From Acidobacteriota bacterium (lineage in GTDB: Bacteria > Acidobacteriota > Thermoanaerobaculia > Multivoradales > Multivoraceae): a stretch of DNA of 62,306 nt. Location of the stretch: NCBI GenBank assembly GCA_003388555.1, contig QQVD01000054.1:1-62306 (forward strand), given 5' to 3'. Every line of letters begins with the position of its first letter. Positions within the stretch are counted from its first letter, which is position 1. The notes beneath the pieces are model-generated. The model had not been told where the DNA came from, ran no database searches, and worked only from the letters and a program-made list of their open reading frames with translations. The position numbers and the translations under genes are program-made. This document shows, in pieces, positions 8,503-35,443 of this stretch.

Positions 8503-10296
8503 TCAAGAGCTCGTCGAGCTCCAGGCCGACGTGTCACCGTCCTCGAAGCCATCGAAGAACAGATCTCCGTGGCTCTCCACGGCGCCCTTGTCGCACTGAG
8601 CACCACCCGCCCCGTCGCCGTCGAACGGGCGCGTCAGACCGCGCTGATCGACCGCCGGGCACGAGGGTGAGCCGGTGTCCAGCGCAGCGCTGCCCGGTTG
8701 AGGAACGTGCCCCAGGCTCGCCGCACCGGCGAGCCAGCCGCGAGGACCGAGGCCTGTGGGCACGCCGGTCGCATCGCCGACCGTGACGCTGATCGTGCAG
8801 CCCACCGTCGTGGCGACGAGGTTGTAGCCGTTCGAGCTCAGCACGCCGCTGCAGTCATCGGTCAGCGCTCCACGGGCGGCGCCCCTCAGGTTGTCGCCGA
8901 CGACCGAGTTCGTGGTGCTGACCGCGGCTCCGCCAGCGACGAAGACTCCCCCGCCCTCGCCGGTTCCGTCGTCGTCGGCGTCGGCGCGGTTGGCGGCGAT
9001 CGTCACGCTGTCGAGGCTGACCGCACCCACGTCGACGTAAAGACCCGCGCCGTCGAGGTCGCTCTCGTTCCCGCTCAGCGTCACGTTGGTCAGATAGGCG
9101 GTGTCACTCGAGAACTTGTAGATCCCTCCGCCCAGTTCTCCGGCTGTGTTCTCGACCACCGACACGCGGGTCAGCTGCACTTCGCCGCCGGCGATCGCAA
9201 CGCCTCCGCCGCGACCGTTGACGCCGCGTGCCGCGTTCCGGCGCACCAGTGTGTCGCGCACCGTCACGATGCCCTCGTTGATGGTCAAGCCACCCCCGAG
9301 CCCGGCGTTCTCGTTGTCACTCACCACGACCCGATCGAGCTCGGCGAAAGCCGAGAAGATCCGTGCACCGCCGCCGCTCGATCCCTGGTTCCCGATCAAC
9401 GCGACGTCCTCCAGCTCGAGCACGCCGAATCCGACGTCGTACTCGATCCCTCCGATGTTGCCCTGGTTGCCCTCGATCACAGTGCGGCGCACGGTCAGAT
9501 CTCCCTCGATCTGCCCGATACCGGCGCCGTTGGCGCCACCGGCAACCTGGTCGCCATTCGAGGCGATCATGGAGTCCTCGATCGTGACCTCCGTATCGCC
9601 GGCGATCTCGACTCCCTGGATCTCGCAGTCCACGATCGTCGAGTCCCGGATCAGGAGCTCCTGCCCGTCGCCGGGACCTGCCGCGACGCGCAGTCCGACC
9701 CCCTCCTGGTTCGGTCCGGCGAACGCGATGCCGTCGATGATGACGCCGTCGAGGCTCACGTGAGGTTGCGCCGGTGGCAGCGCCGCCACAGTGTTCTGCA
9801 CGTCGATCCCGTAGGTCGTGGCATCGAGCAGCGCCGAGTCCTCGACCACCAGCTTCGTCTCGTCGAGCAGGCGGATCGAGGTGCGGCCCCCTTCGAGCTG
9901 GAGTTGCTGGATCGTCACCTCGCCTGCTCCAGATCCGGCCTGCACGTCGAGCAGGTTCGAGGCCAGGCCGAAGTTCAGGCGTGGGTACGGGATGGAGGCC
10001 CCCGCCAGGGTGACGTCCTGACCGTTCGTCTGCACCACCAGGGTGCCGACCAGGAGGTAGAGGCCAGAGGGCACGAGGATCAGGTCGTCGCCGATGGCGC
10101 CGATGCAGCCCTGATACGGGCTGATGTCGTTCGCGGCCGCGTGCAGTGCCTCCCGGATCGAGCACACCGCGTCGGCGACATTCGAGTCCGACTGCGTCGT
10201 CACCACGATGACGCCAGCCGTCGCCGGCGTGCCGGCAGCCACCAGGTGTACGACGGCGCAGAGCGTCGCAAGGGTTGCACTCAGCTGATCCTTCAT
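8503..10296 (-). CDS. Secreted CSLREA/parallel beta-helix surface protein with DGFE tail
   Basis: 597 residues. A signal peptide (hydrophobic about 5-27, ending TPATA) leads to a CSLREA-type motif, CSIREALHAA, at about residue 44. The body is a long parallel beta-helix of short Asn- and Gly-rich repeats (IRDSTIVDCEIQGVEI, NVTLSGNESDLDGAGLYV), as in polymorphic outer-membrane proteins. It ends in FFDGFEDGDTSAW plus six residues, the tail shared by three other proteins here. An extracellular or surface location is inferred. AGGAGG at 10304-10309 sets the ATG at 10296. It is divergent from the protease gene at 10653. Confidence 0.85.
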   Translation of the reverse strand: MKDQLSATLATLCAVVHLVAAGTPATAGVIVVTTQSDSNVADAVCSIREALHAAANDISPYQGCIGAIGDDLILVPSGLYLLVGTLVVQTNGQDVTLAGASIPYPRLNFGLASNLLDVQAGSGAGEVTIQQLQLEGGRTSIRLLDETKLVVEDSALLDATTYGIDVQNTVAALPPAQPHVSLDGVIIDGIAFAGPNQEGVGLRVAAGPGDGQELLIRDSTIVDCEIQGVEIAGDTEVTIEDSMIASNGDQVAGGANGAGIGQIEGDLTVRRTVIEGNQGNIGGIEYDVGFGVLELEDVALIGNQGSSGGGARIFSAFAELDRVVVSDNENAGLGGGLTINEGIVTVRDTLVRRNAARGVNGRGGGVAIAGGEVQLTRVSVVENTAGELGGGIYKFSSDTAYLTNVTLSGNESDLDGAGLYVDVGAVSLDSVTIAANRADADDDGTGEGGGVFVAGGAAVSTTNSVVGDNLRGAARGALTDDCSGVLSSNGYNLVATTVGCTISVTVGDATGVPTGLGPRGWLAGAASLGHVPQPGSAALDTGSPSCPAVDQRGLTRPFDGDGAGGAQCDKGAVESHGDLFFDGFEDGDTSAWSSTSS

Positions 10297-10652
10297 GGTC
10301 GAACCTCCTGGCGTCGGAATGGTCGTCGGCCTCACGCCTCTCGAGTTCCTACGTGAGTGGTTCCTGCCCGAGGACAGACCTCTTCCGGCACCACACGAGT
10401 CCGCCGGTTCCAGGGTGAGCCGATCCCGTACTGCGGACCGGACGCCCGAGTCGGTTGCGGTACCGAGAACTCGGCACGATCGACTCGCCGGCTCGTTCCA
10501 TATCCGGGTCGCAGTGCCTTGCCGAAGGCGACCCGACCGAGCCCGACGGGTCCGGACCTGCGGCCTCGTGTCGTTGGACAGAGTGAGACCAAGAATTGCC
10601 GCGGTGCGGACCGGTCCGGGCAGATCGGCGCGCCACCGCCAATGGAGGGACC
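10297..10652. promoter_or_regulatory. Divergent promoter region with two perfect palindromes
   Basis: 356 bp between two divergent secreted-protein genes. It contains the palindromes GGTCCGGACC (10549-10558) and CGGACCGGTCCG (10607-10618), which share the CCGG core and flank the likely protease promoter region; a TTGGAC -35-like hexamer lies near 10574. They could be operators for one regulator. No coding sequence is supported here. Confidence 0.4.
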
Positions 10653-12602
10653 ATGCGAACCAACTCCGCCGACGGATCCGCGTTCAAGAGCCCGATCCGA
10701 ACCACTCTTCTCGCCTCGCTCGTGGCTCTCGCGTCCGTCGCGGGCTCGGCCCAGCAGACCGAGGAGTTCGATCAACGCCGACAGCTGCTAGAAGCTCCAC
10801 CGATTCCGATGCCTCGAGGCATCGAGTACTCGGACGCGGAGTCACGCGATCCCGAGATGCGTCGGATCGTCCGCTACGACCCCGAGACGGGCCGCGCCTC
10901 GATCGAGGAGGGCTCGCAGCTGCCGCCGGAGGGCAACCTCTTTGCACCTCCCTACGTGCCTGGAGTCAGCGCCGTGCCCGATCGTGACGATCCCGAGCAT
11001 GCGGAGGCGGAGCTCGATGGTCTGCGTGGCGGCACTCCGCCGACGCCGCTCTCCAACGCGACCACCTACCCGTGGGTCTCGATCGTCAAGCTGGTGATGC
11101 GCTTCGGCAACTTCTTCTACAACTGCAGCGGCTTCGTCTTCGGCGAGTTCCAGGTGGTGACGGCCGGGCACTGCATCTACAACCACGACCCCAACGACGA
11201 CGGCAGCACCGCCGACGCGGCCTGGGCCGACGAGGTCTGGATCTACCCGGCGCAGGGTGACGTCGCTCTGCCGGCCTGGAACGGTGGGCTGGCGCACAGC
11301 AGCGACCAACCGTACGGACCCTCGAAGATGGTCTTCATGCGCAGCTACACAGGCTGGACCGTGAGCCAGAACCTCGACTACGACTTCGGCTCGATCACCC
11401 TGGACCGCCGGATCGGTACCTACACCGGGTGGATGGGCATGGAGGCCACCGTGGCCAGCGCCCTGAACTTCTCGGGCTATCCGACCGAGACCCCCTACGT
11501 GCCGAGCGGAACCCCCCTGCAGTATTTCGGCTTCGACTCGGGCAACGTCAACGGCTCGACCAGCTTCCGCATCGGACTCGACGCCTTCATCTACGGCGGC
11601 CACAGCGGCGGACCCTCCTGGCGCTTCTCGTCACCGAACCGCTGGGTCGAGGGCGTGCACTCGACCTCCAACCGCGTCGGCGCCGCGGAGGACACGCGCC
11701 TGAACCAGACCAACATCGACAACGTGATCGCCTGGGCGCAGGACGACGAGAACGTCCGACCGCCGTTCGCCCGCCCCGAGCTGGTGGAGTACACCCACGC
11801 CTCCGGGCAGAAGGCGATCAGCAAGACCCTGGTCGGACGCGGTGAGCCCATCGTCGTCGACTACAACAACTACAACGCGGGCTTCGCCAACACTGGAACG
11901 ATCACCAACCGGTTCTTCTTCTCCACCAACGGCATCATCAGCGACCTCGACACGTTGGCCGACACCTCGCTGGACGCCGGTTTGAGCCCGAACACCTTTC
12001 GCACCGCCTCCGAAGCGATGACGGTCCCGCCGCTCACTGCGGGGACCTACTACGTCGGCTGGATCAGCTCGAGCGCCGTGCCGGAGTACTCCGGGGACGC
12101 CACCTGCACCAACGACCCGTGCAGCAACGTCGCGATCCTCCCCACCCCGGTGACGGTGGAGAACTGCGACGCCGACGGCTACGAGGACGACGACAGCTCC
12201 GGACAGGCCAACCTGCTGGGTGCCTCGACGCAGTCGCGGTCTCTCTGCGAGACCGGCGACGAGGACTGGGCCTTCTTCAACCTGGCCGAGTCGAGCCAGG
12301 TGATCCTTCAGACCGACGGCCCGGCCGGCGACACCCGCATGTGGTTGCGCAACGCGGGGCTCTCCCAGATCGAGTTCGACGACGACGGCGGACCCGGTCT
12401 CTTCTCTTTGATCGACCGCTTCTGCGGCGTCGATCCACTGCCGGCCGGTCTCTACTACGTCCAGATCGACGAGTTCGGCGACAACAACATCGTGCAGAAC
12501 TACGACCTCGATCTCGACGTCGTAGCCTGCTCCCTGATCGAGATCTTCAGCGACGGCTTCGAGTCGGGTGATCTGTCGGCTTGGGACGCGAGCGTCCCTT
12601 AG
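10653..12602 (+). CDS. Secreted trypsin-like serine protease with PPC-like and DGFESG tail
   Basis: 649 residues. Signal peptide at residues 1-34 (ending GSAQQ), a pro-region to about 130, then a chymotrypsin/V8-fold protease with the full triad: His173 (TAGHC), Asp244 (YDFGS) and Ser318 (GHSGGP). Next come a CARDB-like beta domain (about 380-500), a PPC-like domain (about 505-625, YEDDDSSGQA...YYVQIDEFG...YDLDL), and the tail FSDGFESGDLSAW. It should be an extracellular peptidase. GGAGG at 10644-10648 sets the ATG. The last six codons form an inverted repeat and match the unit of the tandem array that follows. Confidence 0.9.
   Translation: MRTNSADGSAFKSPIRTTLLASLVALASVAGSAQQTEEFDQRRQLLEAPPIPMPRGIEYSDAESRDPEMRRIVRYDPETGRASIEEGSQLPPEGNLFAPPYVPGVSAVPDRDDPEHAEAELDGLRGGTPPTPLSNATTYPWVSIVKLVMRFGNFFYNCSGFVFGEFQVVTAGHCIYNHDPNDDGSTADAAWADEVWIYPAQGDVALPAWNGGLAHSSDQPYGPSKMVFMRSYTGWTVSQNLDYDFGSITLDRRIGTYTGWMGMEATVASALNFSGYPTETPYVPSGTPLQYFGFDSGNVNGSTSFRIGLDAFIYGGHSGGPSWRFSSPNRWVEGVHSTSNRVGAAEDTRLNQTNIDNVIAWAQDDENVRPPFARPELVEYTHASGQKAISKTLVGRGEPIVVDYNNYNAGFANTGTITNRFFFSTNGIISDLDTLADTSLDAGLSPNTFRTASEAMTVPPLTAGTYYVGWISSSAVPEYSGDATCTNDPCSNVAILPTPVTVENCDADGYEDDDSSGQANLLGASTQSRSLCETGDEDWAFFNLAESSQVILQTDGPAGDTRMWLRNAGLSQIEFDDDGGPGLFSLIDRFCGVDPLPAGLYYVQIDEFGDNNIVQNYDLDLDVVACSLIEIFSDGFESGDLSAWDASVP
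12583..12600 (+). terminator. Hairpin inside the last codons of the protease gene
   Basis: GGGACGC (12583-12589), GA, GCGTCCC (12592-12598), then TT and the stop codon. A 7-bp perfect stem is encoded by the final D-A-S-V-P codons. It could act as a terminator or a 3' stabiliser. Similar but weaker stems recur in the downstream repeats. Confidence 0.45.
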
Positions 12603-12932
12603 CCGACAGCTCACCCGCTCTAGAGCAGATCCCGACCGGCTAAGGCCGGTCGAGAACCTGCACGAGTCGGGTGCGCGACGTGAGGGCGGCCTGGGACGCC
12701 AGCCTCCCTTAGCCGACAGCTCACACGCTCTGGAGCTCCATCCCGACCGGCTAAGGCCGGTCGAGAACCTGCACGAGTCGGGTACGCGAGGTGAGGGCGG
12801 CCTGGGACGCCAGCCTCCCTGAGCCGACAGCTCACACGCTCTGGAGCTCCATCCCGACCGGCTAAGGCCGGTCGAGAACCTGCACGAGTCGGGTACGCGA
12901 CGTGAGGGCGGCCTGGGACGCGAGCGTCCCTG
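12601..12932. repeat. Three tandem 110/111-bp hairpin-rich repeats
   Basis: Full units start at 12601, 12711 and 12822 (lengths 110, 111, 111), and a fourth partial unit starts at 12933. Each holds three self-complementary pieces: a TGGAGCTCCA palindrome (absent from unit 1), an 8-bp stem CGACCGGC-TAAG-GCCGGTCG (12633-12652 in unit 1), and a final GGGACGC..GC.TCCC stem. The 3' end of each unit resembles the last codons and stop of the protease gene. There is no continuous reading frame with coding character; short frames merely repeat the unit. Confidence 0.9.
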
Positions 12933-12958
12933 AGCCGACAGCCTCCAGGTCTCGGGAC

Positions 12959-13903
12959 TCAGTCCTCCTGGAAGCCACGCAGCTGCGCCACGCGGGCGAG
13001 GATCAAGGGGTGCGGCGGCGTGGCGACGTCGGGGTCCCTGCCCTCGTACTCGAACTGCTGCAGCACGTACTGCATCGCCGCCAGCCGGGCGCGCATCTTG
13101 TCCTCCGTCTTGACGATGACCCAGGGCGCCTCAGGAGTGTCGGTACGGCGAAAGTTCTCCTCCTTCGCCTCGGTGTAGGCATCCCAACGCTCCTGTGCCT
13201 CACGGTCGATCGGCGACAGCTTCCACTGCTTGAGGGGATGCACGCGGCGTTCACGGAAGCGGCGCGCCTGCTCCTCGCGCGAGACCGAGAGGTAGAGCTT
13301 GATCAGGTGGATGCCGCTGCGCACCAGCATGGTTTCGAAGAGCGGTGCCTGGTGCACGAACTCCTCGTACTCGGCGTCGGTGCAGAAGCCCATCACCTTC
13401 TCCACCCCAGCACGGTTGTACCAGGAGCGATCGAAGAAGACGATCTCGCCGGCGGTCGGCAGGTGGTCGACGTAGCGCTGGAAGTACCACTGGCCACGCT
13501 CCTCCTCGGTCGGCTTGACCAGCGCCACGGCGCGCGCCGCGCGGGGATCGAGGTGCTCGAGGAAGCGCTTGATGGTGCTGCCCTTGCCCGCCGCGTCCCG
13601 TCCCTCCAGCAACACGACGATCCGGGTGCCGGTCTCCTTGACCCAGTTCTGCAGCTTCACCAGCTCGATCTGCAGCGCGCGCTTCTCGCGGTAGTACTGG
13701 CGCACCCCGATCGGCTCGGCGAACGGATAGGCGTTCTCGGCGAAGTAGCGCCGGATCAGCTTCGGGGTGATCGACTGACCCGGCACGAGCGGGCGCGCGT
13801 TGGCGAGCAGCGGCGGCGCCTCGTCGACCTCGAGCGAGTCGATCAGGAAGTCGGTCCATTCCGCCGCCGGATCCGGCGTTTCGGGCGGCTCAGCGTGGTG
13901 CAT
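12959..13903 (-). CDS. ppk2: Polyphosphate kinase 2 family protein
   Basis: 314 residues, a single PPK2 domain. Visible motifs are Walker A GRDAAGKGSTIKRF (about 100-113), Walker B FDRSWYNRAGVEKVMGF (about 160), the lid-loop ERRVHPLKQWKLSPID and the C-terminal W.IV..EDK. Enzymes of this class transfer phosphate between polyphosphate and nucleotides in the cytoplasm; the domain order and length fit class I (nucleoside diphosphate acceptor), though the class is inferred. The ATG at 13903 has no ribosome site, but a TACGAT -10-like hexamer lies 8 nt upstream (13912-13917), so a leaderless mRNA is likely. Confidence 0.92.
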   Translation of the reverse strand: MHHAEPPETPDPAAEWTDFLIDSLEVDEAPPLLANARPLVPGQSITPKLIRRYFAENAYPFAEPIGVRQYYREKRALQIELVKLQNWVKETGTRIVVLLEGRDAAGKGSTIKRFLEHLDPRAARAVALVKPTEEERGQWYFQRYVDHLPTAGEIVFFDRSWYNRAGVEKVMGFCTDAEYEEFVHQAPLFETMLVRSGIHLIKLYLSVSREEQARRFRERRVHPLKQWKLSPIDREAQERWDAYTEAKEENFRRTDTPEAPWVIVKTEDKMRARLAAMQYVLQQFEYEGRDPDVATPPHPLILARVAQLRGFQED

Positions 13904-21697: not shown

Positions 21698-23140
21698 TCA
21701 GCGATCCGTCCCCAGGGCGGTCGAGGACCAGTCCGTCAGGGTGCCGTCCTCGAAGCCGTCGGCGAAGAGCAAACCCTGGGCCTCCAGCCGCAGGGCCTCG
21801 GCGCGCTGTCGCAGCATCGCCAGCAGCTGCGAGTAGGCCGGGTCGTCGACGAGGTCGATCGACTCGTACGGATCCGCGGCCCAGTGGTAGAGCTCGTCCT
21901 GCCCGTGATCGCGGTAACGGATGAGCTTGAACCCCGTGTCGGAGCGCACACCGTAGTGCCGCGGGATCGGTGTCTTCACGCCGGCGAACGAGTGCTCGAA
22001 GAAGAAGTCGTCACGCCAGGCCGGACCGTGCGAGAGCGCGGGTGCCACACCACGCTCGAGCAGAGGCACCAGGCTACGCCCCTGCATCCTGGCGGGCACC
22101 GGCACACCGGCGAGCTCGAGGAAGGTCGGCGCCAGATCGAGATTCAGCACCGTCTCCGGCACCACGCCTGCGCCGCGGCGGGGATCGAAGACCACCAGCG
22201 GCACGCGCAACGACGGCTCGTAGCCCAGCCACTTGCCGGCGAAGCCGCGCTCGCCGACGAAGAAGCCGTTGTCGCTCGACAGCACCACCACCGTGCGCCC
22301 GGCGATGCCGGCGCGAGACACGGCCTCGACGATGCGGCCGACGGCATCGTCGAGGCCGACGATCATCTGCAGGTAGCGCCGCATCATCGGCTCGTAGAGC
22401 TCCTCCGTCCAACGCCACCAGAAGCGTTCGCGATTGAGCGACTGGCGCAGGAACCACGGCTGGGCGGCGAAGAAGGAAGGCTCCCAGGTCGGCGGCGGGA
22501 CGAACGTCGTCTCGGCGAAGAGACCGGCGTGGCGGTCCGGCGGGATGAACTGCAGCGGGTCTTCGTCCTGGGCGTGCGGCGAGTGGAACCAGACGAAGAG
22601 AGCGAAGTCCTCTGCGGCACGGCGCTCGATGAAGTCGACAGCGAGATCGCCGATGTGATCGACGGCGTGCTGCGGTCCCAGGCCCGGAACGTACTCCTGC
22701 ACGATCGACGGGTGACGCGACACCGGCCGGAACTCGTCGAACAGAAGCTCGGCCCGAGGGCCGTCCAGCGCCGCGCCGTCCTTGCCGATCATGCCGGTGA
22801 CCAAGCCATGCCGGCGCAGCAGCCGCGGCACGCTGTGCTCGAGCAACCGCAGGTCGAGGGGTGGCGTCTGGAAGGTGAAGCGGTGCGAGCTCTCGTAGAG
22901 ACCGGTGAGCACGCTGGCGCGGCTCGCCGGGCAGACCGGTGTCGACACGAAAGCGTTCGCGAAGTCGTGACCTGCAGCACGCAGGGCTTCGATGTGCGGG
23001 GTGTGCGTGGCCAGGACCGGCGGCAGGTCGACGCGCCAGTCGTCGGCGAAGAGGAAGACCAGGTTGACTCGCTCGGTGGCGGCGGGCACCGAGGCGGCGT
23101 GCAGCCCGAGGGCCAGGACGAGGAGCGCTCGCAGGATCAG
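21698..23140 (-). CDS. Exported sulfatase with DGFEDG tail (probable CTG start)
   Basis: Sulfatase fold: N-terminal strand VNLVFLFADDWR with metal aspartates, the formylglycine site Cys70 in CPASRASVLTG, GMIGKDG, VVVLSSDNGFFVGERG and the DLAPTFLELAGV block. It should hydrolyse sulfate esters once the cysteine is modified. The only standard start, GTG at 23089, gives a 463-residue protein without a signal peptide. The 17 codons upstream read LILRALLVLALGLHAAS, a good signal sequence beginning with CTG at 23140, just after GAGGG, so a CTG start (480 residues) is proposed. It ends LFADGFEDGTLTDW plus nine residues. Last gene of the S9-gor-sulfatase operon; a sulfatase-maturing enzyme is not in the window. 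Confidence 0.8.
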   Translation of the reverse strand: MILRALLVLALGLHAASVPAATERVNLVFLFADDWRVDLPPVLATHTPHIEALRAAGHDFANAFVSTPVCPASRASVLTGLYESSHRFTFQTPPLDLRLLEHSVPRLLRRHGLVTGMIGKDGAALDGPRAELLFDEFRPVSRHPSIVQEYVPGLGPQHAVDHIGDLAVDFIERRAAEDFALFVWFHSPHAQDEDPLQFIPPDRHAGLFAETTFVPPPTWEPSFFAAQPWFLRQSLNRERFWWRWTEELYEPMMRRYLQMIVGLDDAVGRIVEAVSRAGIAGRTVVVLSSDNGFFVGERGFAGKWLGYEPSLRVPLVVFDPRRGAGVVPETVLNLDLAPTFLELAGVPVPARMQGRSLVPLLERGVAPALSHGPAWRDDFFFEHSFAGVKTPIPRHYGVRSDTGFKLIRYRDHGQDELYHWAADPYESIDLVDDPAYSQLLAMLRQRAEALRLEAQGLLFADGFEDGTLTDWSSTALGTDR

Positions 23141-23146
23141 ACGCCC

Positions 23147-24541
23147 TCAGCCACCCACCGGCGTGCGCATGGTGACGAACTCCTCGGCCGACGTCGGGTG
23201 GATGCCGATCGTGCGGTCGAAGTCCTCCTTGGTGGCGCCCATCTTCATCGCGATCGCCAGGCCCTGCATGATCTCCCCCGCGTCGGCGCCGAGCATGTGG
23301 GCTCCCACCACCCGTCGACTCGCCTTGTCGACCACCAACTTCATCAAGCTGCGCCCTTCGTTCTCGGTCAGCGTGTGTTTCAGCGGCTTGAAGTGGCTGC
23401 GGTAGATCTCCACCGAATCGTCGCCGCAGACCTTCCGCGCCTCCTCCTCGGTGAGCCCGACGGCCCCGATGGGAGGATGCGAGAAGACGGCCGAAGCGAC
23501 CAGCTCGTGGTCGAAAGGTATCGGGTCGTCGTGGAAGAGGGTGCGCACCAGGCACATCGCCTCGTGCAGCGCCACGGGAGTCAGGTTGACCCGGTCGGTG
23601 ACGTCTCCGATGGCGAAGATGTTGTCGACCGAGGTGCGGCCGTACTCGTCGACACAGATGGCGCCGTTCTCTCCCAGTTCCACCCCGGCGTTCTCCAGAC
23701 CGAGGCCGCGGGTGTTCGGCGTACGCCCGATGGCGTAGAGCACCAGATCGGTCGCCAGGCGGTCTCCGCCGGAGAGCCTCGCCTCGAGTCGGCACTCGCC
23801 CCCCGGCGTCTCACGGATCTCCTCGATGATCTCGCCGAAGACGAGTCGGATCCCCTGTCTGCGCATCTCGTCGCGCAACGCCTCGCGCACGTCGCGATCG
23901 AAGCCGCGGAGGAAGAGATCGCGCCGATAGACGAGTGTCGTATCGACGCCGAGCCCGTGCAAGATGCCGGCGAACTCCACCGCGATGTAACCGCCGCCGG
24001 CGACCACCGCGTGCCGCGGCAGCTCGGGAAGGTAGAACATCTCGTTCGACGTGATCGCGTGCTCGACGCCAGGCTCGCTGGGGAGATTCGGCCAACCGCC
24101 GACGGCGATCAGGATCTTCGCGGCGCTGACTTCCCGGCTGACCTCTGCGCCCTCGATCCGCACCGTGTGGCGATCGACCAGCGAACCCCGCCCACGCAGG
24201 ATCTCGACCGATGCGTCCTCGAGCAGTCTCCGGTAGACGCCGTTGAGCCGCTCGATCTCGGCAGTCTTGTTGTCGCGCAGGGTGGGCCAGTCGAACTCGA
24301 GACCGGTGGCGGTCCAGCCGAGGCGCCGTGCGTCGTGCATCTCGCGACCGACCTCGGAAGCGTAGACGAAGAGCTTCTTCGGTACGCACCCGACATTGAC
24401 GCACGTACCGCCCAGCCGGTCCACCTCGACCACAGCGACCCGGGCGCCCGCGGCCGCCGCCATGCGGCTCGCCCGCACTCCCCCCGAGCCGGCGCCCAGC
24501 ACAAGGAGGTCGTAGTCGTACGACGAGCCGCTCGAAGTCAC
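23147..24541 (-). CDS. gor: Glutathione-disulfide reductase
   Basis: 464 residues, a flavin disulfide reductase. FAD fold GAGSGGVRASR, redox pair Cys47/Cys52 in GGTCVNVGCVPKK, NADP(H) Rossmann motif GGGYIAVEFAGILHGLG followed by R residues (YRRDLFLRGFD) that favour NADPH, the second FAD motif FAIGDVTDR and the C-terminal base His448 (HPTSAEEF). It regenerates reduced glutathione. The GTG start overlaps the stop of the upstream S9 peptidase (GTGA), and its own stop is in the same frame as the downstream sulfatase with only six bases between it and the proposed CTG. The glutathione synthesis genes lie 6-16 kb away. Confidence 0.93.
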   Translation of the reverse strand: MTSSGSSYDYDLLVLGAGSGGVRASRMAAAAGARVAVVEVDRLGGTCVNVGCVPKKLFVYASEVGREMHDARRLGWTATGLEFDWPTLRDNKTAEIERLNGVYRRLLEDASVEILRGRGSLVDRHTVRIEGAEVSREVSAAKILIAVGGWPNLPSEPGVEHAITSNEMFYLPELPRHAVVAGGGYIAVEFAGILHGLGVDTTLVYRRDLFLRGFDRDVREALRDEMRRQGIRLVFGEIIEEIRETPGGECRLEARLSGGDRLATDLVLYAIGRTPNTRGLGLENAGVELGENGAICVDEYGRTSVDNIFAIGDVTDRVNLTPVALHEAMCLVRTLFHDDPIPFDHELVASAVFSHPPIGAVGLTEEEARKVCGDDSVEIYRSHFKPLKHTLTENEGRSLMKLVVDKASRRVVGAHMLGADAGEIMQGLAIAMKMGATKEDFDRTIGIHPTSAEEFVTMRTPVGG

Positions 24542-34273: not shown

Positions 34274-35443
34274 TCAGGGGAAGACGGTCCACCCCTGCAG
34301 ACCGTTCTCGAAGCCGCTGCGGAAGACCAGCACGCTGCGCCGCGCCGCGAGATCGACGTTGCTGAACCAGTAACCGTCTGGATCGTTCTCCCCGGGCTGG
34401 TAGGGCGCCAGGTCGACGGCGGCCTGCCACGAGAACTCGTCGGCCAGACCGAGGGCCGATGCATCGATGGTCAGCGTCAGCTCGTCGCCGCTGACCGACA
34501 GTTGCGGCACGGCGACTCCGGTGACCTCGAAGTAGGCACCGGTCCAGGTTCGCGCCAAGGCGGTGATCAGACCGTTCGGAGCGAAGTAGGCCGTGAGCAG
34601 GTGATCGTTCCCCAGGGCATCGCCCGTCCCGGCATCGGCGTCGACGTCGAGTCCGACCCGGTAGACCGGCGTGTAGGGAGCGGTCAGCGTAGTCTCGGGA
34701 GCCAACGCCGGCAGATCCGCCGCCAGGCGCAGGGTGACCTGCAGTTGCGGCGCCTGGTAGTCGGCCTCGGCGAACACGATGTCGTAGTAGGAGCTCGGCG
34801 CGTAGGGGAAGGCGCGTGTCCCCTGCGCGACGTATCGACCCCAGCCGTCGGCCGACGGCTGCAGCGGGAACACCGCCGTCCAGGTGTCGGGTGTGCCGCC
34901 GCCCATCGGGAAGTTCAGCCCGAAGGCGAGCGTGGTCTCGGTCGGGCCTGGGTCCTCGAGCTGCCGCACCGTGATGCGCAGCAACGTCTCCTCCGCGCTC
35001 TCCAGGATCGTCGCGCTGGTCAGGTCGTGGATCCCGAGAGGCGTGTCACCTTGCGGATCTCCGACCGTCCCGCCGGTGGTGTTGATGACGCCGACGTCGG
35101 GGAGCAGATCGTAGAAGGGCGTCACCGGATCCGACGACGCCGCCAGCCAGTTGCTGATCAGGGGCGGCAGGAGCACGTCCGGGACCGTCCACTCGATCTG
35201 GTTGCCCGAGATGTCGACCGGACCGCCGAACGGCAGACCGTAGTACGCGGTGGGCGTCAGCACGTCGCCGCTCGGGTCGCTCACCGAAACGACCTGACCA
35301 TCCACTACTGGCGCGACGAGGAGCACGATGATCGGAGCCAAGAGCGCAGCCACCGATCGGCTCCTTCGCCTCGTCGTCGCTACCTCCGCCCACGCGTGCA
35401 TCGACGTACCACTCTCTTTCACGAGCGAACTTCGTCCTTTCAT
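34274..35443 (-). CDS. Secreted protein of unknown function with GFENG tail
   Basis: 389 residues. A signal peptide (about 28-50, ending VVDGQ) is followed by an all-beta body of roughly 320 residues with segments such as SVSDPSGDV, DLTSATI and VYRVGLDVDADAGTG, suggesting a carbohydrate-binding or DOMON-like sandwich; no enzyme motif is visible. The C-terminus VFRSGFENGLQGW plus TVFP is a variant of the DGFESG tail. The final codons contain an inverted repeat (CAGGGG...CCCCTG). GGAG 9 nt upstream supports the ATG. A strong hairpin lies just upstream of the ribosome site. Confidence 0.7.
   Translation of the reverse strand: MKGRSSLVKESGTSMHAWAEVATTRRRSRSVAALLAPIIVLLVAPVVDGQVVSVSDPSGDVLTPTAYYGLPFGGPVDISGNQIEWTVPDVLLPPLISNWLAASSDPVTPFYDLLPDVGVINTTGGTVGDPQGDTPLGIHDLTSATILESAEETLLRITVRQLEDPGPTETTLAFGLNFPMGGGTPDTWTAVFPLQPSADGWGRYVAQGTRAFPYAPSSYYDIVFAEADYQAPQLQVTLRLAADLPALAPETTLTAPYTPVYRVGLDVDADAGTGDALGNDHLLTAYFAPNGLITALARTWTGAYFEVTGVAVPQLSVSGDELTLTIDASALGLADEFSWQAAVDLAPYQPGENDPDGYWFSNVDLAARRSVLVFRSGFENGLQGWTVFP

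Follow-up and report, generated by a model that had tools for sequence, protein, structure and literature searches.

A short C-terminal tail on many exported proteins of an Acidobacteriota bacterium matches the opening piece of a Cip1-like jelly-roll and may dock onto a separately secreted remainder of that domain

The DNA analyzed here (the window, a stretch of 62,306 nucleotides from a single contig of an Acidobacteriota bacterium) encodes four proteins with different bodies for which a common C-terminal tail had been proposed from the sequence. The four C-termini all read in the window translations as given by this original prediction. The corresponding features, together with two repeats found at one of the tails, were as follows.

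8503-10335, minus strand: right-handed beta-helix protein with a choice-of-anchor Q domain, tail carrier
8506-8568, minus strand: tail GDLFFDGFEDGDTSAWSSTSS of the beta-helix protein (35.2 bits in the tail-profile search, over 8509-8568)
10653-12602, plus strand: secreted trypsin-like protease with a PPC-like region, tail carrier (start 10653 picked by the signal-peptide heuristic)
12540-12599, plus strand: tail EIFSDGFESGDLSAWDASVP of the protease (stop at 12600-12602; 45.8 bits in the tail-profile search)
12565-12617, plus strand: DNA palindrome covering tail codons of the protease and the bases just past its stop (17-nt arms at 12565-12581 and 12601-12617)
12629-12961, plus strand: three 111-bp tandem units downstream of the protease, with a copy of the 3' part of the tail and the stop
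21698-23146, minus strand: sulfatase (PF00884 and SGSH_C), tail carrier (bounds given from the preceding stop)
21701-21775, minus strand: tail GLLFADGFEDGTLTDWSSTALGTDR of the sulfatase (29.1 bits in the tail-profile search, over 21719-21775)
34274-35443, minus strand: secreted protein carrying a divergent tail
34277-34333, minus strand: divergent tail VLVFRSGFENGLQGWTVFP, the C-terminus of this secreted protein

The protease, the beta-helix protein and the sulfatase end in ...IFSDGFESGDLSAWDASVP, ...LFFDGFEDGDTSAWSSTSS and ...LLFADGFEDGTLTDWSSTALGTDR, respectively, each followed directly by the stop. The fourth tail (SGFENG) is a weak member of the set, absent from the matches listed by the tail-profile search, and its protein had no match in NCBIfam (E up to 10) or Pfam (E up to 1). 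For the beta-helix protein, the CSLREA label first proposed relies on a match below threshold (17.9 bits for a cut-off of 25), whereas the choice_anch_Q family scores above its own (42.1 bits, cut-off 25). The sulfatase failed our simple signal-peptide rule; a signal-peptide-like stretch, LILRALLVLALGLHAASVPA, is present in its frame (23089-23160, minus strand), directly after the stop of the upstream gene and upstream of both the listed GTG start and the first ATG, GTG or TTG of the frame. Over the window DNA as a whole, GFExG was matched four times for 0.5 expected, a number reached in 1 of 100 shuffles.

The tail turned out to be recurrent on a larger scale than had been claimed. In the source genome of the window (G000, 6.8 Mb), the pattern DGFE[S/T..]G gave 91 matches and its reversed control none, and we extracted 85 distinct C-terminal tails from the regions picked by this pattern and from the window. 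Their consensus is [LIV]F-x-DGFESGD-x-[ST]-A-W-S-x-[TS]-[TV]-P-stop, the stop lying exactly five residues past the Trp in 69 of the 85. Conservation starts sharply four residues ahead of GFE (itself part of the selection), and all synonymous codons are in use at the conserved Gly and Ser positions. A tail-profile search of the genome, in which 150 of 403 candidates were scored, gave a list of at least 147 matches with an E threshold of 10, including some short repeats in non-coding DNA. Forty further loci found by the profile were fetched, of which 39 corresponded to C-terminal tails and one to a motif just behind a signal-peptide-like stretch; of these 40 motifs, none of them on the DGFE[S/T]G list, 38 have E or D at the Glu position and 39 an aromatic residue at the Phe position, the profile itself having been derived from DGFE tails. 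Adding the 85 and the 39 C-terminal copies, at least 124 proteins of this genome end in the tail.

The palindrome at the protease tail is one of several in this genome. An inverted repeat between the tail and the post-stop bases scored at least 8 in 17 of 87 source-genome tails (5.2 expected from shuffled downstreams) and at least 10 in 8 of them (0.2 expected), and clear tandem copies were present downstream of 11 of 85 tails. At six loci (L011, L033, L024, L015, L010, and L036), tandem repeats of about 100 bp past the tail gene are exact or near-exact copies of the 3' half of the tail and its stop. TAG stops were also commoner in the tail genes of G000 (38/82) than in other gene-like ORFs (46/174), perhaps in connection with the palindromes. 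The search of Rfam with the repeat gave two sub-threshold matches that we took as chance. The inverted repeats and tandem copies would be expected if a mobile palindromic DNA repeat were in part translated as the tail. However, the palindrome was seen in the source genome alone, its frequency in 101 tails of other species (3 for 2.4 expected) not being above chance, so that it explains neither the conservation of the tail as protein nor its spread. Moreover, the F-x-DGF part lies outside the repeat and the codons vary among tails. We thus rejected the palindrome, which marks about a fifth of the source-genome tails, as the cause of the tail and consider such an origin highly improbable.

In named records, a stricter form of the motif was found, among the matches listed, mostly in Thermoanaerobaculia and other Acidobacteriota. 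Pattern counts over 148 genomes of the class were patchy, ranging from 0 to 143. Within the family of the window, single genomes of the genera g1 to g3 had 91, 81, and 39 matches, and 21 genomes of g4 had 0 to 6. Several of the low counts that we inspected were chance matches in the wrong frame, and a tail-profile check of 16 genomes found no tail in six of them (G064, G070, G117, G012, G098, and G106). We set the boundary between tail-rich and tail-poor genomes, by our own choice, at 10 pattern matches, and the comparisons below cover 147 genomes (43 tail-rich and 104 tail-poor, G087 being left out). Twelve genomes were reached via named loci, most of them with one or two tail matches; the genomes with such low counts include Marinicella, a Kangiella bin, two Gammaproteobacteria bins, and Acanthopleuribacter. 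Higher numbers were obtained for G149 (contig Deltaproteobacteria P_S1_bin.14; 136 matches), G154 (Holophagae bacterium CSMAG_2570; 41) and G155 (20), the coordinates in G149 and G155 being identical to those in the class genomes G056 and G028.

The idea of a common tag on otherwise unrelated, mostly exported proteins was borne out in the source genome: a heuristic signal peptide was found in 73 of the 85 tail ORFs compared to 71 of 275 control ORFs, taken from the same regions with a minimum length of 200 residues. The carriers seen without export were anti-sigma-like membrane proteins with the motif beyond the helix, rather than cytoplasmic proteins. Family scans were performed on 76 of the 85 tail proteins, leaving out nine of at least 1000 residues, and these 76 matched 49 NCBIfam and 60 Pfam families (E 0.01). 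The bodies include, among the matches listed, beta-helices, FG-GAP proteins, subtilases, metalloproteases, a sulfatase, and a dehydrogenase. At the same threshold, choice_anch_Q was matched by 13 of the 76, whereas myxosortase-dependent, rhombosortase-dependent, and LPXTG-anchored peptidase families were matched by two, one, and two proteins, respectively. The family matches support the view that the tail sits in the slot where relatives elsewhere have their C-terminal signals.

This slot and these clients, which are those of known C-terminal signals, and the tightly fixed position of the stop could indicate that some export or anchoring machine reads the tail as a C-terminal signal for sorting or secretion. 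The likeness of the tail to a jelly-roll start (see below) would then reflect its origin, and the stand-alone jelly-roll would be a lectin-like protein kept by the same lineages. The original prediction had suggested sorting, anchoring, or processing in the manner of PEP-CTERM or GlyGly-CTERM. The shared C-terminal tag was retained from this suggestion and the likeness to PEP-CTERM was not, considering the missing helix, an exosortase-like gene that tracks the tail weakly, and motifs that are also non-terminal. The tail indeed has no hydrophobic stretch, as had been noticed at the outset, and mostly ends five residues past the Trp. Membership of the PEP-CTERM, GlyGly-CTERM, or MYXO-CTERM groups, which are marked by a hydrophobic helix plus a basic C-terminus, was not supported, given this lack of a hydrophobic stretch and four tail peptides that, searched alone, had no NCBIfam match; a T9SS C-terminal domain was not supported by the same four peptides or by three with no match in Pfam. 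The search for a co-occurring peptidase or secretion gene, which covered an exosortase-like family and the GspD model, did not yield a partner either. The exosortase-like family PF09721 was found in 34 of the 43 tail-rich genomes and in 63 of the 104 tail-poor ones, a weak association (p 0.036), and the GspD model matched all 147 genomes (one over the cut-off), so that type II secretion does not discriminate between them. PF09721 proteins were found in 97 of the 147 genomes, mostly as single copies, and in none of the 21 g4 genomes. In these g4 genomes, which are almost tail-free, the best secretin matches (E 3e-43 to 8e-40) are weaker than those of most other genomes, which would be in line with a sorting signal. 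On the other hand, the motif was also found behind signal peptides and inside proteins, in a few cases; such positions, in the middle or at the start of a protein, fit a docking strand better than an obligate terminal signal. In the literature searched (titles and beginnings of abstracts, with few subscription papers covered), we found no mention of DGFESG, only unrelated uses of GFESG as judged by titles, and no sorting signal of Thermoanaerobaculia.

The tail matches the start of a Cip1-like jelly-roll that is about 195 residues long, namely a strand, the calcium loop, and a second strand within the first 20 or so residues, and the same motif opens a larger jelly-roll-like domain in other bacteria. 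The two forms meet in the relatives of a dehydrogenase-like tail protein (L041). In many tail-rich genomes these relatives end in the short tail; in G039, G045, G046, G048, and G055 they align through the tail and extend some 180 residues further, making up a whole jelly-roll; and in the tail-poor families f10, f14, and f17 the alignment stops, among the matches listed, at or before the first residue of the tail. G055, with its fused whole-domain relative, is itself tail-rich. Relatives carrying the whole domain at the same place are what one would see if the tails were worn remnants of a lost C-terminal domain, devoid of present function. Nevertheless, sharp conservation at the protein level, with synonymous codons free and the end fixed, on at least 124 proteins, makes such decay scarcely credible.

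The profile of the full domains matched the solved structure of Cip1 (3ZYP) with E=6.9e-6, positions 3-194 of the profile aligning to residues 3-210 of the chain and the motif to residues 3-15. The fold matches of the full domain were jelly-roll lyases and lectins (Z 12.7-16.3 among the matches listed), and AlphaFold models of two full domains had a jelly-roll fold, with medium overall quality and low confidence over the motif (block means 39-58). CBM_4_9 (PF02018) reached 12.2 to 17.4 bits in three full domains, below its cut-off of 25.9, with the match starting near the motif. In the Cip1 structure as described (PMC3764139), strand 1 spans Ile2-Asp4, the calcium loop Phe6-Trp15, strand 2 Pro16-Ser18, and strand 3 Thr27-Asp31. 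Glu7, Ser37, and Asp206, the latter in the last strand, are among the residues whose side chains bind the calcium, and part of the coordination comes from the loop that follows strand 3. Going by this strand layout, the tail would end about where strand 2 ends. In the alignment, the residues of the full domain at the positions of Glu7 and Asp206 are the Glu of the motif and a C-terminal Asp. Three ORFs of more than 2000 residues (G056:C39, G057:C492, and G027:C41) have two or three consecutive jelly-roll matches.

A class-wide search with the domain minus its first piece recovered embedded domains and also a small secreted protein, hereafter the acceptor, in which the signal peptide is directly followed by the jelly-roll from about strand 3 onward. 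It was found in most tail-rich genomes, usually as one stand-alone gene each; the one found in the genome of the window lies at about G000:C55:22275-23048. The acceptor often ends in ...D[ED]F.S.R or ...RTLAP, and the C-terminal Asp, counterpart of Cip1 Asp206, was invariant in 19 of 19 aligned acceptors. The acceptor matched the full-domain profile (best E 1.2e-33) and its own profile matched no solved structure of the PDB up to E=1, so that its link to Cip1 runs through the full domains.

The tail and the acceptor are complementary halves. Among the fetched loci matching the acceptor profile at 1e-8, with the motif scored by script, the GFE..W piece was present in none of the 34 domains lying directly behind a signal peptide compared to 24 of 30 embedded domains (31 by script, minus the misfiled L275, which is plainly stand-alone); variants were visible by eye in some of the six others. 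The strand is thus missing from the acceptor and present in the donor, as in donor-strand partners. A reading of the tail as sorting signal leaves unexplained why the acceptor lacks exactly the piece that the tail provides. Three proteins (L044 of the source genome, L116, and L123) had a whole, more distant domain, motif included, directly behind the signal peptide, hence not every secreted stand-alone jelly-roll is split.

The tail and the acceptor tend to occur in the same genomes. The domain was present in 38 of 43 tail-rich versus 16 of 104 tail-poor genomes (Fisher 4e-17) and, by genus, in 22 of 23 versus 9 of 46 (6e-10), and the stand-alone acceptor in 38 of 43 versus at least 6 of 104 (2e-23), values that are descriptive only since relatedness of the genomes makes them overstate independence and since the comparison was made on a sample in which the acceptor had already come up in many tail-rich genomes. 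The per-genome domain counts are lower bounds based on the scored candidates, and stand-alone acceptors were counted by eye among the matches listed, provided that the match started within the signal-peptide part of the model; in the ten remaining tail-poor carriers, the domains were, among the matches listed, embedded. Within the genus g52, G108 and G110 have both tail and acceptor and G109 has neither. Five tail-rich genomes gave no acceptor match even at E 10 (G030, G049, 70% complete, G050, G093, 79% complete, and G103, which has 96 tail matches at 94% completeness). The same was true of G154 despite its 41 tail matches, and no acceptor was found in G111 (65% complete), which has a tail (L231). 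Conversely, the acceptor was present in G020 and G021 with one and two tail matches. Tail-rich genomes without an acceptor match would again be in line with a sorting signal, an explanation that in addition does not account for the motif-bearing neighbors of the acceptor described hereafter and that we consider unlikely as a whole.

We compared the surroundings of the acceptor gene at the loci L262-L281 and L300-L312. Of 30 loci, 19 to 20 had a sulfatase-family cluster close to it, often beginning like a lipoprotein; three of the cluster members were confirmed by Pfam and some are wrong-frame ORFs. The PF00884 and SGSH_C families are matched by the tail-bearing sulfatase of the window as well. 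A small gene with an anti-sigma layout was found close to the acceptor in L262, L263, L266, and L275 (G062, G063, G026, and G058), that is, for four of 29 distinct acceptor genes (L263 and L304 overlapping), one of them with a degenerate motif. In these genes, zf-HC2 was over the Pfam cut-off in L266 alone, below it in L263 and L262, and absent in L275; close to these genes, a sigma-70 region 2 match exceeded the cut-off in L263 and fell just short of it in L262. Past the membrane helix, three of the four encoded proteins (L263, L266, and L275) carry tail-like motifs:

L266, past the helix: DGFESGRFGIW and GGFESGTLEGW
L263, past the helix: DGFESGSLERL and DFESGGLGGW
L275, past the helix: IFLDGFEPGDLSRW
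L262, past the helix: degenerate SFEGG

A sensor wearing the tag beside the gene of its own socket is what a circuit controlling the supply of the socket would look like; no combination of an anti-sigma factor with a donor strand was found in the literature searched. The same neighbors may be read in another way. Pilus chaperones cap subunits until export, and the acceptor could likewise act as a chaperone in the periplasm, covering the tail up to the export of the client and then staying behind. This variant of docking overlaps with the split-domain model favored below and differs from it in what follows binding. One stand-alone acceptor gene for many clients would suit a chaperone, and the motif-bearing anti-sigma-like protein could sense free acceptor. 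However, no machine that would take over the client was identified and the anti-sigma arrangement was seen in few loci; we regard a chaperone as possible, if doubtful.

We consider it probable, from the sequences, that the tail is a natural, non-covalent split-domain docking tag that plugs into the acceptor as into a socket. The tail, the acceptor, the site of the split, the fused forms, the co-occurrence, and the anti-sigma-like neighbors with the motif together make strong sequence evidence for this predicted docking. In such a model, one half of a Cip1-like jelly-roll, comprising strand 1, the calcium-binding loop, and strand 2, would be carried as the tail, and the other half, from about strand 3 to the last strand, would be secreted as the acceptor. 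The tail-bearing proteins would be exported by the Sec route and, outside the cytoplasm, the tail would insert into the open edge of the acceptor and complete its fold, the Glu of the tail and the C-terminal Asp of the acceptor jointly holding one structural calcium. Both the binding and the shared calcium are predictions of the model. Every client would in this way gain the same jelly-roll module without encoding it. As for the purpose, which is the least certain part, the completed carbohydrate-binding-like domain may serve to hold the clients at the cell surface or in a matrix rather than to help their export. We also lean, with less assurance, toward a more general proposal in which the split of the jelly-roll has produced a proteome-wide tag and socket: strands 1 and 2 with part of the calcium site would be the tag of more than 100 exported proteins, and the remainder a free socket whose supply would be monitored, in some lineages, by an anti-sigma factor wearing the same tag.

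Several known systems share features with this model. The full domain resembles Cip1 of Hypocrea jecorina (3ZYP) and related calcium jelly-rolls in aligning over nearly the whole chain, in its FESG..W start, and in the C-terminal Asp of the calcium site, but here the domain is cut between strands 2 and 3, its first part being the tail of many proteins and the rest a secreted protein of its own. In cellulosomes, dockerins are short calcium-using modules that end many secreted proteins and dock on a cohesin partner. The tail would likewise be a short end module docking on a partner, as predicted here; unlike a dockerin, it has about 20 residues and would join the partner's own fold. No dockerin or cohesin family was among the matches listed in the scans of the 76 tail proteins. 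In the donor-strand complementation of pili, a strand from one protein completes the sandwich of another, as we predict for the tail and its partner, but the clients here are many unrelated enzymes and repeat proteins instead of fiber subunits, and the fold is a jelly-roll instead of an Ig fold. PEP-CTERM, GlyGly-CTERM, MYXO-CTERM, and LPXTG signals occupy the same C-terminal position on similar bodies, whereas the tail has no membrane helix and is poorly tracked by exosortase, the one enzyme family compared. Finally, SpyTag/SpyCatcher is an engineered pair in which a peptide tag completes a split domain, while the tail is natural and its predicted association non-covalent and calcium-linked.

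If the model is correct, it would represent a new way of equipping a large exported proteome with one shared module, at the cost of twenty added residues rather than two hundred. The tail and its partner would then be a naturally evolved, probably calcium-dependent peptide tag system for protein engineering, and an anonymous C-terminal motif becomes testable with one peptide and one purified protein. The tail would also provide a marker, readable from genomes, of the exoproteome that bears it, and would hint at the way in which many poorly studied Acidobacteriota position or retain the enzymes they secrete.
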